This document shows, one piece after another, positions 14,628 through 39,112 of a stretch of DNA of 64,000 bases. The stretch's first letter is position 1. Each line of letters starts with the position of its first letter. The stretch lies in NCBI GenBank assembly GCA_946699065.1, contig CAMPDV010000041.1, forward strand, positions 1,116,001 to 1,180,000. The letters are read 5' to 3'. The notes under the pieces are model-generated. The model made no database searches, was not told the DNA's origin, and was given only the letters and a program-made list of their open reading frames with translations. A program made the translations under genes and the position numbers. This DNA comes from Loxodes magnus. Lineage: Eukaryota > Ciliophora > Karyorelictea > Loxodida > Loxodidae.

Positions 14628-15552
14628 CTATTATTAAAATAATTAAGTTTGCCAATTTTCGAGGATTTTCACCTCTTCATGTCGATTCCAGATTGCTCCG
14701 GGATTAAAAAAAGGTTTATAGGTCTCTACTCCTCTCCCACCCATTTGTTCTTGTTGTCTCTAACTATGTCTTCAGTTCAGCAAAGGTTTCTTCCTATAAA
14801 AATTTCCAAGCTAGTTCATGAATAGTCTCTCTCTAATTTTCCTTTGTTATAGTTGTCTCATTTTCTTTTGCTACACTTGCTGTTTCCTCTATTTTCTCTA
14901 ATACTGGTTCTTAAAGTTTAGGAATTATTCACATCTTCTTCATAGGTGTTTCTCTGAATTACAGTAGTAGCACTTTTTAACTACTTTGATTGGCTTGGCC
15001 TTCTTCTTCTTGTCAATTACCTCTATCAGCATTTGATCGCCTCTTTGCTCATTAAGTTTCATTTGCTGTTGCAGCTTCTCTTCTATTTCTCCAAGCTTGT
15101 TGCCCAGCTACGTCTGTTTCTATTGCTAATTTTAGAATTAGCAGTTCTGACTTTGTGATATGTTCCAAAATGTACTTAATTCCCTTTCTTAGGAGTTAGT
15201 CTTGACTCGATTTCCTCTTGCTTGTTCAGATTCTCCATTAGCCTGTCGTTGTCCTTCTTTAGTCTCTTGACCTCTTCCTGGAGGTTTAGAACAATTTATA
15301 TGAGCTGTTCCATGCTCATCTGGCCAGAAGGATTAAATTCCGACACCTCCTGGTGAAAAGCAGACTTTGCCTTCTTCTGTTCTTCTTGTTAAATTCTAGG
15401 TTGTTAAGGTTGTAAATATTAAGAAAAAGGTTAAAGTTGTGAAGAAGACGTCATCCAAGAAATGGCTTCCTGCTTCCTCCCTTCCTTCTTAGCTTAGAAA
15501 GAGGTGGTATAGAAGCCTTTCTTGAAACCTTCCACCATTTTATTTTTATTTT
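14628..15552 (-). mobile_element. ORF1-only LINE-like element (copy 2) with 13-bp duplication
   Basis: This ~925-bp unit is flanked by ATATATTAATATA (14615-14627 and 15553-15565), though the target is AT-simple. The frame starts MVEGFKKGFYTTS at 15538, passes a Gln-rich region and a coiled coil (MEQLIQIVLNLQEEVKRLKK), then a CCHC knuckle CYYCNSEKHL-W-RRC at about 14950 in which the Trp codon is TGA, and ends GVETYKPFFNPGAIW. It is close in length and sequence to the unit at 62035-62955. It is slightly broken. It sits at the 3' end of another ORF1 unit (15575-16444), i.e. nested or tandem insertion. Confidence 0.8.
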
Positions 15553-15574
15553 ATATATTAATATATTAGAAGAA

Positions 15575-16444
15575 GAAAACACTTTAAATAAGGATAAGGA
15601 TAAATTAAGTTTATAGTCTTAGAAAAGAGCTCCAGGGTTCACTTGTTTTTGTTCCTGCTCTTTCCTGAACTAAAGGACTACGTAGGACTACATTAGTCCG
15701 CCATCCTTATCTCTCCCTCATCCACTAATTATCGTTATAGTTTCTTCTTCCATTTTTATAAAACTCGTTGTTTCTTGAGTTGTAGAATTTCTTTCTGTAT
15801 ACTTATCCTGTTCTTGTTGGTCATATTCTGAAAAGTTAGTCTAATATTTATTACTTGCTAATTTTTTCAATTTCTTGTTTCTTCCAGCATTTTTTCCAGC
15901 AATGATTTTTCTAGCATAAATAGCACCGAATCTTTTTGCGATAATAATTGATCTTATTTATTTCTTATTATTAGAATTCCGATTCGATTTCCATTGGGAT
16001 ATTTGATTATTAATCTTATTAATCTTATAATTTTTAAATTATTACTTGTTATTATTCTTGTTTTTCTTAAAGTTGCTTTATTTGATATTCAATTTAAGAA
16101 AAATTAAATTGGAACATTTGAGGGACTTCGTTAAATTATTTATCAATTTATTCCAATTTAATTACTATTTACGATTAGATTTTATCTAATGATTCATCTA
16201 TGGATGGGAATTATAGGTTTAATTATTCCATTAATTTTTCTAGTAAGTTTTCTAAATTTTCTATTTTTTATCTTTGCTTTTTCAAGTAATATTGGATATT
16301 TGATATCCTTTGCTGAACTGATTATGCAAAGTATTGGTTAGATTATTAATGTTTATCTTATTAAGGGTATTCTTCAATTAAATTAGGTTATTCTTATTTT
16401 TTAAAGTATTTGTTAATAGAGGTCTATTATTTCTTAGGTGTCAT
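15575..16444 (-). CDS. LINE-like ORF1 protein with coiled coil and CCHC knuckle
   Basis: From ATG at 16444 the frame is continuous for ~290 codons without any indel: MTPKKQQTSINKYFKKQEQ, a heptad-rich coiled coil (IENLENLLEKLMEQLN, IKLEQIDKQFNEV), a knuckle CYLCQKNHCWKKC near 15900 (C-x2-C-x3-H-x4-C, one residue short of standard), and a basic tail with GQVYRKKFYNS. The 3' end AAACTTAATTTATCC is shared with the element at 62 kb, marking a common family. The product should be a nucleic-acid-binding ORF1p that packages the element RNA. No target duplication was found for this copy. Confidence 0.7.
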
Positions 16445-23706: not shown

Positions 23707-26302
23707 ATGAAGATAAAAGGAGGAGGTTGTTGTGGTTCTCAGGATAAAAAATTTAAAGATTAAAAAAATAAAGATAAGTAGAGTAATTAGCCAGTATCAA
23801 AATAAGGGTTAAGCAATGATAAAAGTTAGAAATATCAAGAAAATGAACAAATTTTTGGTAATAAGGAACAAAAGATTTATCAAGAAGGATTGTAGCTCTT
23901 AAAAGAAGGTTTGAATGAATAAAAGATGGATAAAGTTCTACAAGGAATTCAAACAATTCAAAAGAATAAGTTTTCCAACATCAAAGATCCATTAGTTCTT
24001 ATAAATCAATTCATTGAAATTATTTCCCATAAGTATGCTGAAGGATGGTCTTTGCTTTTGAAAGAGTAGCTTGTACGAAATCTTCCTGAGTTATTGGCTA
24101 TGTTGCTTTAGAAGAACGAGTAAAACTCCTTTATAAATGAAAAAAAAAAGAAGAGCTCATTTTAAAAATAAATGATAGCTTAAAGTTAGTAAATAAAAAT
24201 AAAAATAGGATTGGAGGTCCAGAACTAGATTTTTACTTAAGATTTAGTTTGATGATTATGGAGAATATTCCAGATAGCAAAGAAACCGAATATTTTGGAA
24301 TTCTATGTAAGATTTTAAAAGTTGCTTAATGAATAATTGCCTTGACGTTTGGAGTTGGAGTTATAGGGTCAGAAGTGATCTCTATTATAAAGGAGTTTTT
24401 CTTATAAGGAAAAGGTTGGGTAAATTAGAAGCTCAACTATAAAAAGATTATTAGATTACGAGTCTTAGATGCTCTTGCATGTGATTTAGTGAGACAATAC
24501 TCAAAATAAAATTTTTACTAATTTTGAGATATTGTTTTGAAAGAAAAAATAGACTTAATATTTAGAGCATGCTATCTTCTAAAACACATGATAAAAAACC
24601 TGTAAGCTAGTGCAGAATTGGTAGAAGACTCATGTAAGCTTTTAGAAAAACTATGTGACGACAAGGATTGGTAGATAAGGTACTATGCAATGAAGACATT
24701 TTTGGAATTGACTTTAGAAAAGAACCAAATAGCTTGCACTTATAAGGAAAGAATATTTAAGTTGAGAAAAGAGAACTTAAGCAAGAATGTAAAAGAGCGT
24801 TAGATAATTCTAGAATTATTAATGGATCCAGAGCATTTTGTTTTATTTACTTAAACAATAGAAAAGAATTGGTTGGCACTTAAGGACATTAGCAGTAGTA
24901 TATATTAAAATATGATAAGGACTTTAAAAGAAGAGGTTTCGGGGAAGCAAGAATATTATGTAAGCTTACTTTGCGCTCCTAATCCTAATTCATAAGCTGA
25001 GGATGATCTTAACCTTGAAATTTTGAAATTTTTAGAAAACGATACTAAGATAGGATTATTACTTCTGGGAGATTCCGGTTCTGGAAAGTCCTTGTTCCTG
25101 AAGATTTTAGCCTTAAAATATCTAGACTAGAAACATGAATACTTATCCATATATGTGTATCTCCCAACTATAAAAGCATTCGAAGACAAATTAATAGAAT
25201 CTGCTTTAGATAATTATTAAATAGAAAGAAATGAGACATTGAAATTTAGAAAGATTCTGTTCTTATTTGACGCGTATGATGAGTTGGGAGAATGCAAGGC
25301 TATTATCAGTAGTAATAAATTAAAGCAAAAGTATCCTCAGGCAAAATATATAATAACATGTAGAGTAAATTATGCATTAAAAGAAAAAATTACCAACATT
25401 ATTTTTCACCATACAGTAGCGAAAGAGTCTAATTATAAGAGTTATAGGAACTGTATATAAAGCCATTCGATATCGTTTAGATAGAAAAATATATAGAAAA
25501 AGTCCTAGTTAAGAAGAACCAGTAATAATAAAGTGCAAGTCAAGTTTCAAGACAAGTGGAAGCATCTTAAATATAAGAGATGATGGCATTAATATAGAGA
25601 ATACCTGGTCTGAAAGAAATTATCGGTAATCCCTTTCTGCTATATATTTGTTTGAATGAGGAAGAGATATTAGATTATTTAAAAAGTGTTTAAGTAGTTT
25701 AAAAGTCTAGAATATATGAGATTTTCATAGTTTAGTGAAACAAAAGAACCTAAGAAAAATTGTAAAATCAGGGTTTAAAAAGTAAGGTGCTCAACTAGTA
25801 AATAAAGTTGTTTGAAAGTATCTAAGTGAATGCGGCATGGGAGATGTTACAGGGTTCGGTGGAGATATCAAGCTTTGATGAAGTGAATCAAAAGTGGATA
25901 GAATAGTTTACGGACGATTAAAACCATATAGGGTGTTTGATATAGACAAAGGAATAGAATAATAAAAAGAGGTTTGAGTTTATTCATGCGTTGATAAGAG
26001 ATTAATATGTGGCAAAGAATATTATAGATTTAGTTTCATCCGCTAAGGCATAAGCAATAGAGGTTCACAATATAAATAAATTTTTGAAAGTGGACAATCT
26101 GGAGATACTATAGTTTGTGAGAGAGATTTATAATTCAAATTCTGCTAATAATAATTCAAGTGTGTAATAAAATCTATTGGAGATAGTGAGAATGTCCAGT
26201 ACTAATGTTTCTTTATAAATAGTGGCAACTAATAATATAACGATATTGAATTGGAGGGATTACTAATTTACATCTTTGGATCTATCGGGTATATGTGTGT
26301 CC
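23707..26302 (+). CDS. STAND NTPase with NACHT domain (NLR-like), C-terminus cut off
   Basis: From ATG at 23707 (MKIKGGGCCGSQDKK, a Gly/Cys start that could be lipidated) the frame gives an alpha-helical N-terminal half with a HEAT-like helix pair (CDDKDWQIRYYAMKTFLEL), then a NACHT NTPase: Walker A GDSGSGKS at 25068-25091, Walker B ILFLFDAYDELGE at about 25254-25290, sensor YIITCRVNY, and the helical arm (IKPFDIVQIEKYIEKVL, IYEIFIVQW, RFEFIHALIRDQYVAKNI). At the end YQFTSLDLSGICVSEI starts a pentapeptide-like part that stops at an inserted ORF1 fragment. Two single-base losses, both in homopolymers (A10 at ~24140 and T5 at 25402-25406), shift the frame. In-frame TGA sits at Trp places (24330, 24525, 25736), beside seven TGG. 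Ciliate relatives continue into pentapeptide and WD40 repeats. It probably senses a ligand through its C-terminal repeats; that part is missing here. Confidence 0.85.
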
Positions 26303-33300: not shown

Positions 33301-34450
33301 CCCTTATTCCCTTTCAAAAAAATTATCCCGATTCTCGCAAGATTATTCCGTCCCAAAAAATCTCTTGTAGTGTAAAACGCTGAGCAAAAACGAAAATAAA
33401 ATTTCTGCTTTTTTAGCTTATATACTTTTTGAATTTAAAACAAAAAAATATAAAAATTTTTAGAAAATTAAAAAAAAATGTTTTAAAAATCCGAAAAAAT
33501 AATTTGTGTTAAAAAAATCAAAAAAATTTGAAACTAAAAACAAAAAATTTTTATGGAAATTTTAACCGCTTATTAAAAAAAAATCCATTTCTAAATTCTC
33601 TTTCACAAAAAAAAATTGTATTTAAAAAAAAATCGAAATTTTTAAATTATTAAAACTTTTTCTAAAAAAATCTATAAAATAACTTTTATTCCGTTTTTAC
33701 TTTTTTAACATGCTACTTTGATAAAAAAAAATTAAATTCTAATTGATCAAAATCAAAAAAAAATCTAAATCTAAAATTCAAAATTTTTAGAAATTTTTTA
33801 AATAACTTAAAAAAAATTCAAATTTAATTCATAGAAAAAAATTTCAAACTTATTTCTAAAAAAAACAAACAAATTCTAATCGACTAAATAAAAATGAAAA
33901 AATATTATCCCTTAAAAAATTTCAAATACAAATTTTTTATTTGACGACTATTCCTAAAATTTTTTTACAAAAAATTCTAAATACTCTTTTAAATAATTTT
34001 CCTTTATAACCACATTCTAAATTATCGAAATAATTCTAACTTTAATAATTTAAATATTGCATACTTACATCTAAAATATAAGAAATAAATTTTAAAAACA
34101 TATGATATACCTTTTATTAATATTCAAATACAAACTTTATCCAACTATACTCACCTACATCACAGTCATTTAACTAAATTTATTTATTACTCTAACTCTC
34201 TAAACTACTCTTTAACAACCTCTTAAGATTAACACCACTTCTCAATTTTAATCCAATATATAAAATAACATAATATCCAAATACTTAGAAACTATACTTG
34301 TACTTGTAATATTATATAAATTATTATCACTTAAAAAACACTTACTTATAAAGTAAACTTATTAATACCTAAAGTGTATTAGAAAATAATAATTATAAAT
34401 ATATTTTTTAATTCTTAATTAAGTAAAGTTTTAATTTGTTCGTAACGTCC
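27320..34450. other. Long gene-poor AT-rich region
   Basis: About 7 kb without any family motif. The only structure I can support is two reversed copies of the ~45-bp motif at 32.92-33.40 kb and a shift to A-rich DNA from 32.8 kb. From about 34.0 kb the plus strand becomes C-biased, leading into the intron array. Confidence 0.5.
32915..33400 (-). repeat. Two reversed copies of the ~45-bp CTCAGCGTTTTACACTAC motif
   Basis: Near 32930 and 33345 the plus strand reads TTCCGTCCCAAAAAATCTCT and then GTAGTGTAAAACGCTGAGCA (best copy at 33.35 kb), the reverse complement of the units at 5.9-7.0 kb. Their spacing is ~415 bp. Confidence 0.6.
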
Positions 34451-34457
34451 TTCACTC

Positions 34458-36414
34458 TCAACTCCTCACTACATAACATTGAATTATCCCTTACATCCTA
34501 AAATTTATTTAAAAACCTCATTACCCCCTTATAATATTAAAATAACTTACATTCTATATTAACAATAAAATTACACTTACCACCTAAATCAATATTAAAC
34601 ACATTACAATCTGAAAATAACCTATAAAAAAATACTTACATACTAAAATAGACCATTACATTCTAAATGTAACCTTAAACTTACTCCCTTCATTTTCACC
34701 TTAAACTTTAACTTACAATCTTCATTTTCACCTTAAACTTTAACTTACCATCTTCATTTTCACCTTAAACTTTAACTTACTCACTTCATTTTCACCTTAA
34801 ACTTTAACTTACCATCTTCATTTTCACCTTAAACTTTAACTTACTCACTTCATTTTCACCTTAAACTTTAACTTACTCACTTCATTTTCACCTTAAACTT
34901 TAACTTACTCCCTTCATTTTCACCTTAAACTTTAACTTACCATCTTCATTTTCACCTTAAACTTTAACTTACCATCTTAATTTTAACCTTAAACTTTTAT
35001 TTACAATCTTCATTTCACCTTAAACTTTAACTTACTTTCTTAAGTGTTAATTATTAAAATGAAACTTACCATCTTAAGTGTTAATTATTAAACTTGAACT
35101 TACCTAAATTAAGTGTTAATTATTAAAATGAAACTTACTCCCTTTAAACGTAATTTAGTAAAACAAATACTTACAATCTTATTGCGAAACATTTAAAATG
35201 AAACTTACATGCTAAATCATTATTAAATACTAACTTACCATCTAAATATTATAATTAATCCTTACTCCCTATTATTGAAGTTATTTAAGACTTACATCCT
35301 TTTAATTAAAGTAAATCTTAAACTCACCTTGCTCTTTATTAAAGTTATAAAATCTATTTACTGTCTATATTATTGTAAGAAAATTAAATTTGAACTTACT
35401 TAATTCCATTTGCAACCTCTCACTATTCAACATATTTTAACTCGCTACTGTTTAACCGTCATTCAATATAACCTTATTCTTAACGATACTCAAACCGTTA
35501 GGCAATAACTCAGTTTAAGCTTAGATCTATTGCTTTATCTAACCGATAGTAGTCCCTTATTTTACTGATAACTATACCGTTTTATTGTTTGGCGATACAA
35601 TAGTTATCTAGATGTCCTATTACTTAGCCGAGATATTTTGAGGTTATTGAATTTGTTTAGGCTATATCACTTAAGGCTTTACTTGTTACTATTCGATTTA
35701 TTTAACTTGCAGAGATGATAACTGCTATTATTGACTTTAGATTTAAGTACTCAACTTTTATATCTCATTCTTCAAGTAACTATTTTCCTATGTCACTTAA
35801 GTTAGATTAAACTTGCAAGAGTCTAGTTCCTCAAAAACTTTAACCGATACCTGATTGCTCTTCTAGATGATTTTTTAAACATCAGCTATCAATTTTGACA
35901 CCTATTGCTCACTCTATGGAGATTCTTAATAAATGATCTACTACTAACTGCTTCCTTTTTTATCCATCATCTATTTCTACATTTTGAAAAACCTCAACTA
36001 TTCTTAGATTTACTTATCCTGCTAAATCAACTGTCTTTGTAAGCTGATATTCTCCTTAAACAAATAAGTACTCACGTGCTTTATCAATTACTAGATGAAA
36101 AGACTGTAAACCTTGGACAATTAAGTTTAAGCTTGACGAACTCTTGACGATTGATTCTATAACATCGTTATATTTCCCATGAGGTTCTTTTGTTCAAGAC
36201 GCTTAAGTAACTAAGTGTCTTATTGTAAATTTACTGGATGAATTTTGTGAACTTTCTAGCAATTTTAGTCAAAGCATTTGAATGCCTAACTTTTCTAAAA
36301 CTAATCCTGGACACAGGTATAGCATATGTTGTGCTTGCAAGGTAACAACATTGGTATTTTAATCTACCCATCGAAACTTCCTTGACACTAATGACATTTA
36401 GCAGTCTAGGACAT
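34458..36414 (-). CDS. RING finger - coiled coil - ubiquitin-like protein; C-terminal tail encoded by a 30-intron array
   Basis: The main exon (36414-35400) encodes 338 residues with no in-frame TGA. Residues 7-52 form a C3HC4 RING: C7-x2-C10-x15-C26-K-H28-x2-C31-x2-C34-x12-C47-x4-C52 (LPCKHNICYTC). Residues ~60-240 are helical, Gln-rich coiled coil. Residues 269-338 look like a ubiquitin fold: QITIVSPNNKTVQLSV, TTIGQIKQQIQ, VILNDGQTVASQNML, LQMEL. RING proteins of this kind are usually ubiquitin ligases. The exon stops in phase 1 at GAATTAA^GTAAGT. The array at 34469-35399 follows; removing 30 GT..AG units adds 87 nt and an 11-nt last exon, giving a 370-aa product ending ..EWGLRS then TGA. 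All five Trp in the tail are TGG. The splicing is inferred from sequence only; the RING and UBL calls are firm by motif. Confidence 0.85.
34469..35399 (-). repeat. Array of 30 tandem mini-introns separated by single codons
   Basis: Read on the minus strand, the whole 931 bp parses into 30 units that begin GTAAGT (or GTAATG, GTAAGG, GTAAAT, GTGAGT) and end in AAG, TAG or CAG. Unit lengths run from 17 to 35 nt and their interiors differ widely at both ends of the array. The DNA between units is exactly 3 nt in 27 of 29 gaps, 6 nt once (AGCAAG) and 0 nt once. In the centre nine consecutive units are the same 29-mer, with two near-copies. The separators there read ATG, GGA, TGA, TGA, ATG, TGA, ATG, ATT. 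An ordinary minisatellite would not keep 3-nt spacers between units of different length and sequence. Alternative parsing: in the 29-mers an inner AG allows a 17-nt intron plus a 15-nt exon. Confidence 0.85.
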
Positions 36415-36439
36415 TTCAGATTACATTATTAATTTTAAA

Positions 36440-38487: not shown

Positions 38488-38768
38488 AAAAAAGTTTTTA
38501 TACCGGAAACTCCTTTCCGATTGCACAACCCGACGCTCTCTTTTTATGGAATAACTGGAATATTCTGTTGTGCTCAAGGCACAGGTGCTAGGGAGCTCAA
38601 TTTCAATGAGTAGACAAGCTTCTAACCCCTACCAAGAGCAATAATCGAAAAGAAAGTAATCCCTTAGGAAGCCGACTCTAATCAAGAAATTTATCAGCGA
38701 AACCAAAAGTAATTTGTTATTAGCCATAAAAACAGAAAGTGTCGTCACAAATGGCATTCTCAGCTGAA
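38488..38768 (-). mobile_element. SINE-like element, family 1 (copy 2)
   Basis: Reverse-complement relative of 2069-2377, diverged: the plus strand carries GGAATAACTGGAATATTCTG and CCCCTACCAAGAG-like blocks. The terminal hairpin is CGGAAA-GGAG-TTTCCG, a different stem in the same place as copy 1. The B box is degraded (GGTTAGAAGCT). No target duplication found. Confidence 0.7.
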
Positions 38769-39045: not shown

Positions 39046-39112
39046 GTAAAAGTTTAAGGTGAAAATGAAGTTGGTAAGTTAAAGTTTAAGGTGAAAATGT
39101 AGTGAGTAAGTT
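39046..39112 (+). repeat. Inverted fragment of the mini-intron array
   Basis: On the plus strand this piece has the end of one 29-nt unit, TTG, a full 29-nt unit (GTAAGTTAAAG..AATGTAG), TGA, and the beginning of a third (GTAAGTTATAC). It is the same unit as the central part of 34469-35399 but in the opposite orientation, 4 kb away, at the edge of an A-rich tract and of duplication block A. No RING or UBL coding is seen beside it. Confidence 0.8.

Follow-up and report, generated by a model that had tools for sequence, protein, structure and literature searches.

Here we describe a gene family of the ciliate Loxodes magnus in which a long first exon is followed by a tandem array of minute GT-AG units, and we consider it likely that this array is a spliced minisatellite, with the mini-introns being removed and the C-terminal tail being built one codon at a time. 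The gene under study lies on the minus strand of a 64,000-nucleotide stretch of contig CAMPDV010000041.1 (C41:1116001-1180000, hereafter the window), and genome-wide searches covered the L. magnus assembly of 705,730,643 bases. Assembly of the tail one codon at a time had been proposed from the window sequence alone. It is supported by the paralogues, in that the same exon precedes the array in every gene-bearing locus, the frame is kept, and the last five tail codons are conserved. Beyond that proposal, the comparison of loci revealed that the array structure is family-wide and hypervariable. The shared architecture, the keeping of the frame, the conserved tail codons and the hypervariable middle codons can all be read from the sequences compared below.

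In the window, the 931-bp array (minus strand, 34469-35399) resolves into 30 GT..AG units of 17-35 nt, as the sequence-only reading had stated. Equally, 27 of the 29 gaps measure 3 nt, one measures 6 nt (AGCAAG) and one 0 nt. The pattern AGNNNGTAAG has 24 matches on the minus strand of the window, 22 of them inside the array, and other spacings of this pattern (0-12 nt) gave 0-6 matches per strand. The longest chain of GTAA..AG units with 3-nt gaps contains 21 units in the array, 2 in the rest of the minus strand and 3 on the plus strand (at 39046), the last being a fragment of the array's own repeat. It had also been argued that the constant spacing is not the by-product of a repeat. This applies to the flanking units, which differ in length and sequence yet keep the distance of AG plus 3 nt. 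It does not apply to about 11 central units (34670-35041), which form a near-perfect 32-nt tandem repeat, so that their constant spacing follows from the repeat itself.

To place the array in its genomic context, we collected paralogous loci (individual loci and contigs are designated by L and C numbers). Of 2196 first-look candidates for exon 1 in the genome, 118 were scored as matches, most of them full-length; some are partial, some are near-identical pairs on separate contigs, and the genes of L032, L034, L036 and L037 are not on this list. An estimate of ~450 genes, derived from unit counts, was withdrawn because long arrays distant from scored genes contain units too. The initial sample comprised 32 loci, 10 obtained via the repeat unit, 21 via the gene, and the window. 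Duplicates are included: L041 corresponds to the window gene, L039 and L043 to a single place, and L056-L058 and L038/L061 are near-identical. The gene was found just upstream of the array in 10 of 10 unit-fetched loci, and the array in 21 of 21 gene-fetched loci (duplicates included). The unit-fetched loci were drawn from the first 101 of 5186 places and are not a random sample. These 101 places form 13 clusters: 11 genic ones and 2 (C41:11535 and window 39054) that are fragments located upstream of a gene. The array is present in all 27 non-redundant parsed copies. It also has this plan in seven stretches collected later, which represent 3 independent copies and include one group with GTCAG as its first donor. 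The family proteins are 50-92% identical to the window protein (tblastn, ciliate code), and since the loci share ancestry, per-locus counts are not independent. As a side observation, the DNA downstream of the gene (window ~30.0-33.7 kb) is 94-95% identical to that of L033, L035, L038 and L039, compared with 84-91% in the gene region, which we read as a sign of mosaic segmental repeats.

Parsing of the 27 non-redundant loci yielded 912 mini-introns of 17-42 nt, 909 with GT-AG and 3 with GC-AG ends. The donors are GTAAG (748), GTAAT (65), GTAAA (48), GTGAG (31) and others (20, including 3 GCAAG), and the acceptors are AAG (585), TAG (303) and CAG (24). Since the parser demands GT(GC)-AG ends, only the spacing and the GC donors are informative. 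The 885 separators measure 3 nt in 813 cases, 6 nt in 27, 0 nt in 41 and 2 nt in 4, that is, 881 are multiples of three. The parser favours 3-nt separators; with equal cost for all separator lengths, ~750 of 828 separators were still 3 nt long (25 loci). In 642 of 696 array cases, exactly 3 nt separate a GTAAG from the nearest AG before it, whereas for 83 control GTAAGs elsewhere in the window the AG distance is scattered over 0-40. Three of the 2-nt separators lie in L053, where they sum to 6, and the remaining one is in L038. In the 24 loci whose parse reaches the stop, each array contains 25-47 introns; L040 (contig end), L036, which has GC donors, and L048 were not parsed to the stop.

The arrays are divided into a head, a middle and a tail. 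Across paralogues, the head introns measure ~35, 28, 29, 27, 24, 27, 31, 33 and 35 nt, with the separators ACN AGMAAG GAT GGR ATG CAT ATT GGA. The middle consists mostly of units of 29 + 3 nt, with 8-30 three-base separators per locus. The tail introns measure ~28, 17, 31, 24, 27, 23, 28 and 26 nt, with the separators AAC/ATC TAT ATC GTG AAT GGG GAT. Spliced in phase 1, most of the 25 translated loci would start with N-K/E-Q/K-G-W-D/N-A-Y-W, continue with a variable stretch and end with L-Y-R-E-W-G-L-x-x-stop (L034, L038 and L048 were mis-framed in this translation). The L045 array additionally contains a run of 11 consecutive 0-nt AG|GT junctions between 35-nt introns, reminiscent of recursive splicing.

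The frame indicates how the array is read. Measured between the exon 1 end and the TGA, the spliced length is divisible by three in 22 of 24 loci, whereas the genomic, unspliced length is distributed 24/19/13 mod 3 over 56 loci (from coordinates only). Comparison of the loci thus indicates that the frame is kept only with the introns removed. The two exceptions are L038, with one 2-nt separator, and L037, with a one-base motif offset and its own TGA in frame, slightly beyond the position common to the other 23 of the 24 aligned copies. Copies differ by 3 or 6 nt just upstream of the stop, and 1- and 4-nt gaps occur downstream only (24 copies). The start of the array in phase 1 at the exon end and the TGA stop, both noted for the window gene, had been read correctly. 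The further argument that no TGA occurs earlier in frame is weak, because TGA in L. magnus codes for Trp or stop depending on context (PMC11441545); the stop kept across paralogues is the better evidence. The head Trp codon changes from TGG to TGA, which is also Trp, in L035 and L056, and the tail changes GAA to GAG and TTG to CTG are silent. In the tail, silent changes number 5 of 16 in phase 0, 10 of 24 in phase 1 and 2 of 14 in phase 2, phase 1 fitting best. The separators contain 2 in-frame TGAs in phase 1, 40 in phase 0 and 83 in phase 2, compared with 5.4 in phase 1 for shuffled separators (25 loci). Synonymous-looking variation in ACN and GGR had prompted us to consider phase 0 for the separators. 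This was set aside on three grounds: the phase-1 end of exon 1, the 40 in-frame TGAs, and three of 24 copies (L038, L047 and L055) that lack a TGA directly after the final separator.

The known introns of L. magnus bear on two other ways of dividing the array. According to the genome report, the somatic (macronuclear) assembly comprises 706 Mbp with 231 Mbp of tandem repeats, RNA-seq introns have a mean length of 19.3 nt and a mode of 17 nt, 93% being ≤25 nt, and no canonical internal eliminated sequences (IESs) were found (PMC11441545). Each unit could be split into a 17-nt intron GTAAGTTAAAGTTTAAG alternating with a 15-nt exon GTGAAAATGAAGNNN, giving a pentapeptide repeat with variable ends. 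Here the intron would have the modal length, 15 is a multiple of 3, and 407 of 439 units contain the internal AG. Against this, the spliced length mod 3 becomes 10/9/5 over 24 loci (first AG 15-22 nt past the donor), and among the 439 units the internal AG is missing in 32, the GT in 4 and the final AG in 39, 26 of which read GA as expected of one-base-shorter units. On the mod-3 and missing-AG counts we rejected this parse as a general rule and regard it as very unlikely. Excision of the units from DNA during development, in the manner of IESs, would suit a ciliate host, but tiny introns are normal in L. magnus, the reported somatic assembly has no canonical IESs, and the units end in GTAAG..AG. 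We therefore give DNA elimination a negligible probability.

The ends of the arrays are conserved and the middle is hypervariable. In 359 middle units from 25 loci, filtered for GTAAG, length 29 and a final AG, the intron sites carry ≤0.56 bits and the separator sites 1.56-1.71 bits of variation, and 250 of the 359 introns are identical. Between loci, the middle separators differ by 0.648 and the intron interiors by 0.048 (350 units), a 13-fold difference. The reverse is seen in the tail, where nucleotide diversity (pi) of the last five separators is 0.104 (ATC), 0.082 (GTG), 0 (AAT), 0 (GGG) and 0.028 (GAT), compared with 0.204, 0.115, 0.129, 0.163 and 0.214 for the introns before them (24 loci). 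Two head separators are likewise below their introns (GAT, 0.078 vs 0.109; ATG, 0.147 vs 0.164). Among close copies, L062/L063 and L067/L068 are identical over 1.8 kb, and the alignment of L038 with L061 (2528 bases) shows 4 substitutions and 4 gap columns, the two copies differing at three separators.

The conserved tail argues against the joining of the first GTAAG to the last AG, by which the whole array would be discarded as one long intron. The outer splice sites are present and the array is largely a tandem repeat. Nevertheless, such an intron would span ~0.8-2 kb, far beyond the length range reported for L. magnus (PMC11441545), and it would leave the GT..AG in every unit and the 3n gaps without reason, as well as the low variation of the last five tail separators relative to the introns and the TGG-TGA swaps that keep Trp. 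We consider this reading highly improbable.

Splicing of the mini-introns could also be combined with neutral diversity, where an old set of about nine unit types has been shuffled by recombination, free of selection or a role in recognition. Nine triplets (AAT ATT GGA ATG CAT TGA AAA TTG ATC) indeed make up 328 of the 359 middle separators. Six of these (GGA ATG CAT ATT ATC AAT) recur as separators of the head or tail, and the remaining three differ from them by one step. The order of the triplets is near-random: between loci, the edit distance is 0.793 compared with 0.801 after shuffling (276 pairs); within loci, the mutual information is 0.155 compared with 0.159; and identical neighbours number 64 of 391, with 54 expected, a count reached by 71 of 1000 shuffles. 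However, neutral shuffling is expected to homogenise codons and introns equally, and the intron sites vary 13 times less. Since the codons vary and the introns do not, either selection for different codons or a process placing codons from a small set is needed. We regard neutral diversity as rather unlikely; its likelihood overlaps that of the spliced minisatellite because both share the splicing. The middle triplets yield 19 amino acids in phase 1 and 17 in phase 0. Insertion of mobile introns into ordinary coding sequence is disfavoured by the nine-triplet alphabet and by the middle codons, which do not align among paralogues.

The repeat is also found elsewhere in the genome. Exact matches to the unit number 5186 with a 3-nt separator and 169 with a 4-nt separator, and one particular 1-nt deletion in the intron has 10 matches. 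Among the first 100 listed of the 169 4-nt units, 57 are on the strand opposite to a scored gene and ≤20 kb upstream of it; for 41, the surrounding 20 kb hold no scored gene. A length of 4 nt does not occur among the 885 separators parsed in the 27 loci. The 4-nt separators are thus rare in genic arrays; most of those listed lie outside, where unscored genes may be present. This fits a frame that is kept in genes and relaxed outside. This bears on the possibility that the array is unspliced, a selfish or regulatory minisatellite that is read through as protein or lies in the 3′ untranslated region. With TAA and TAG as Gln, the exon frame is open into the array as far as 34888, and long arrays of the same repeat occur away from scored genes, both in favour of such an element. 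In contrast, the unspliced length does not preserve the frame, and only the 3 bases between AG and GTAAG are highly variable. Moreover, the 27 parsed genic arrays contain no 4-nt separator, and only 2 of the first 100 listed lie in genic arrays. An unspliced array therefore appears to us a very poor prospect.

Kilobase runs with 4-nt separators were seen at C675 204.5-216.6 kb and, on contigs with no scored gene, at C1005:134025-149781, C746:913-11934 and C4762:76-1132. Short opposite-strand fragments of the repeat lie ~2.0-2.7 kb upstream of the gene start in 4 of 11 scanned loci (the window, L031, L034 and L040), and longer opposite-strand arrays lie upstream of genes on C469, C675, C1570 and C2203. 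Other short GTAAG..AG chains, with units of ~15-22 nt and 3-nt separators, were seen at C10:1010367, C77:487859, C301:109705, C313:10359 and C373:58566. These are not obviously the 32-nt repeat and are perhaps further genes with single-codon exons. The count of short chains (69 forward and 626 reverse; control 1 and 4) is inflated by a GTAAGAAA microsatellite on C240.

Several observations weigh against a spliced minisatellite with conserved ends. The first two tail separators vary more than their own introns (0.367 and 0.221 vs 0.079 and 0.095), as do three head separators (ACN, 0.259 vs 0.071; CAT, 0.180 vs 0.120; ATT, 0.306 vs 0.121), and the head AGCAAG and GGR vary about as much as introns. 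By its silent changes, the head fits phase 0 best (phase 0, 18 of 57; phase 1, 4 of 53; phase 2, 7 of 52). The L064/L065 pair, 99.6% alike, has zero separator differences. Two of the three separator differences between L038 and L061 are single-base gaps that break the frame in one copy each, and these could be sequencing errors. L048 has one broken donor (ATAAG), and the first donor in L064-L066 is GTCAG. Only 116 of the 912 array introns are ≤25 nt, compared with 93% of the reported RNA-seq introns of L. magnus, and the 29-mer intron holds an internal AG that would permit a 17-nt intron of modal length. Two of the first 100 listed 4-nt units lie within one genic array, on C2004. Finally, searches of the genome found no spliced copy of the tail at 3 mismatches, nor of the head at 1 mismatch.

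Exon 1 encodes a RING-like finger (residues 11-51), long helices (67-156 and 170-246) and a ubiquitin-like domain (274-340). The latter is matched by Pfam PF00240 with 26.2 bits against a cut-off of 25.4, and ubiquitins in the PDB match residues 270-340. The finger is matched by Pfam zf-RING_UBOX with an E-value of 1.3e-4 and 22.4 bits, under the cut-off of 25.2. In the window protein, there is no Pfam match to a B-box at E 0.01, and inspection of the N-terminus, with no predictor used, revealed no signal peptide. The AlphaFold2 model of exon 1 from its single sequence is of low confidence (predicted local distance difference test score 58.6). In the window gene, the array would code for the final 32 of ~374 residues. 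The median ratio of nonsynonymous to synonymous substitution rates for exon 1 is 0.35 (346 pairs from 27 full exons, duplicates included), with 0.27 for the RING part, 0.33 for the middle and 0.46 for the ubiquitin-like part. This indicates that exon 1 is under purifying selection. No homologues of exon 1 were found outside L. magnus at E 1e-3, nor of the 32-nt unit in searches of viral_contigs and genome_contigs. TRIM/RBCC E3 ligases form a large family with a RING, a B-box, a long coiled coil and a variable C-terminal part (SPRY). The Loxodes proteins resemble them in the long coiled coil, the variable C-terminus and the size of the family, and may do so in the RING-like finger, whose match is under the Pfam cut-off. 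They differ in having no Pfam B-box match, and a ubiquitin-like domain and a tail apparently encoded codon by codon take the place of SPRY.

We infer splicing of the array, exchange of units between copies and selection for diversity. We also infer that the tail is the peptide by which an E3-ligase-like family would recognise its targets; this role is guessed from the domain plan. In the mechanism we propose, each 32-nt unit would be a complete mini-intron (~29 nt, GTAAG..AG) plus one 3-nt exon. The spliceosome would remove the 25-47 mini-introns by intron definition, as expected where most introns are 17-25 nt, which would shorten the array part to ~80-150 nt and leave a tail that opens with an NKQGWDAYW-like sequence, runs through a variable stretch and closes with YREWGL-x. 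After splicing, each unit would contribute a multiple of three bases, so that copies could gain, lose or swap units without a frame shift, with the intron providing homology for recombination and the codon being the cargo. The head and tail codons would anchor the variable peptide on an E3-like scaffold. Silent cassettes act as donors in other variable families, and the upstream opposite-strand arrays could do so here. A more speculative extension, which we think doubtful, is a peptide library on an E3 ligase scaffold, in which >100 RING/coiled-coil/ubiquitin-like genes, each with its own quasi-random tail from single-codon cassettes, would form a repertoire for ubiquitination targets. The long arrays, many of them upstream on the opposite strand, would be silent donors that renew the expressed arrays. 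In this scheme, exon skipping could also give many tails per gene in frame, because almost every exon is 3n and the middle introns are mostly identical.

The proposed array resembles TAL effector repeats, tandem units with a constant part and a few hypervariable positions, and also the PRDM9 zinc-finger minisatellite. In both of these, the constant part is translated, whereas the constant 29 nt in Loxodes appear to be intron and would be absent from the protein. For the PRDM9 minisatellite, both positive selection and concerted evolution have been reported (PMC8925151). Schistosome micro-exon genes (MEGs) are described as having micro-exons in up to 75% of the coding sequence, with exons of 27 bp in MEG 10-3, variation by exon skipping and, in most, a signal peptide (PMC4015677). 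They share with the Loxodes genes the many tiny symmetric-phase exons per gene, the multigene families and the suitability for protein variation. In Loxodes, however, nearly all array exons are one codon, introns are ~29 nt, the variation is seen between genes, the micro-exons would supply only the last 32 of ~374 residues in the window gene, and the family begins with a RING-like finger.

Arabidopsis APC11 contains a 1-nt exon, for which its authors favour intron definition with recursive splicing (PMC4674806). Since spliceosomes are reported there to join isolated 1- and 3-nt exons, a 3-nt exon should be no obstacle. The APC11 exon and plant microexons (PMC8831610) are reported as isolated and invariable, unlike the variable runs of 25-47 in Loxodes. 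The 0-nt AG|GT junctions, 41 of 885 in the arrays, are similar to recursive splice sites and stwintrons (PMC8469720), but here they are a minority within runs of 3-nt exons. Searches of an open-access library showed no earlier description of a run of single-codon exons, and the main text of the L. magnus genome paper (PMC11441545) does not contain ubiquitin, RING or minisatellite as whole words. If RNA confirms it, the single-codon exon array would be a categorically new gene design. Such extremely split genes, with 25-47 introns and mostly one codon between them, would provide a hard test of intron definition. They would also offer a new route to protein diversity, in which the recombining repeat is spliced out and the hypervariable codons alone are translated, and would form a class of genes that ordinary annotation, with its minimum exon anchors and repeat masking, is expected to miss.

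The features of the window gene are listed in Table 1. The 3′ motif at its stop has 62 exact copies in the genome, 56 of which lie ≤4 kb downstream of a scored gene copy on the same strand.

Table 1 Coordinates of the array gene and related repeats in the window
Feature	Position	Strand	Description
Exon 1	35400..36426	-	ends one base into codon 343 (translated with code 6)
Head zone	35104..35399	-	nine mini-introns of 35, 28, 29, 27, 24, 27, 31, 33 and 35 nt; similar order of lengths and codons in paralogues
Head-zone separators	35104..35399	-	ACA AGCAAG GAT GGA ATG CAT ATT GGA and one 0-nt junction; in phase 1 would read NKQGWNAYW
Middle hypervariable zone	34685..35103	-	13 introns (28-31 nt) with one 3-nt separator after each; the introns are mostly copies of GTAAGTTAAAGTTTAAGGTGAAAATGAAG
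Tail zone	34469..34684	-	eight mini-introns of 22, 17, 29, 24, 27, 23, 27 and 26 nt
Tail-zone separators	34469..34684	-	AAT TAT ATT GTG AAT GGG GAT; read as ..LYCEWGL
Last coding bases and stop TGA (34458-34460)	34458..34468	-	TGA shared in position by 23 of the 24 aligned copies
Stop and 3′ motif TGAGAGTGAAGGACNTTACGAACAAATTAAAAC	34428..34460	-	62 exact genome copies
Two 32-nt repeat units	39046..39105	+	~2.6 kb upstream of gene start, opposite strand; similar fragments in L031, L034 and L040

Elsewhere in the window, repeated open reading frame pieces at 14.7-16.8 kb and 62.2-63.1 kb carry CCHC-like knuckles by eye and may be Gag-like or LINE-like; a Pfam scan of one of them (14943-15638) gave no match. 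On the plus strand, 38500-38760 is a GC-richer stretch within very AT-rich DNA that has the look of a structured RNA by eye, with no Rfam match. A NACHT-like gene at ~24.2-26.4 kb, also on the plus strand, scores 25.1 bits, under the Pfam cut-off of 26.7. It carries an in-frame TGA, which agrees with TGA as Trp, and a possible 26-nt intron at 25416-25441, found by eye, would restore its frame.

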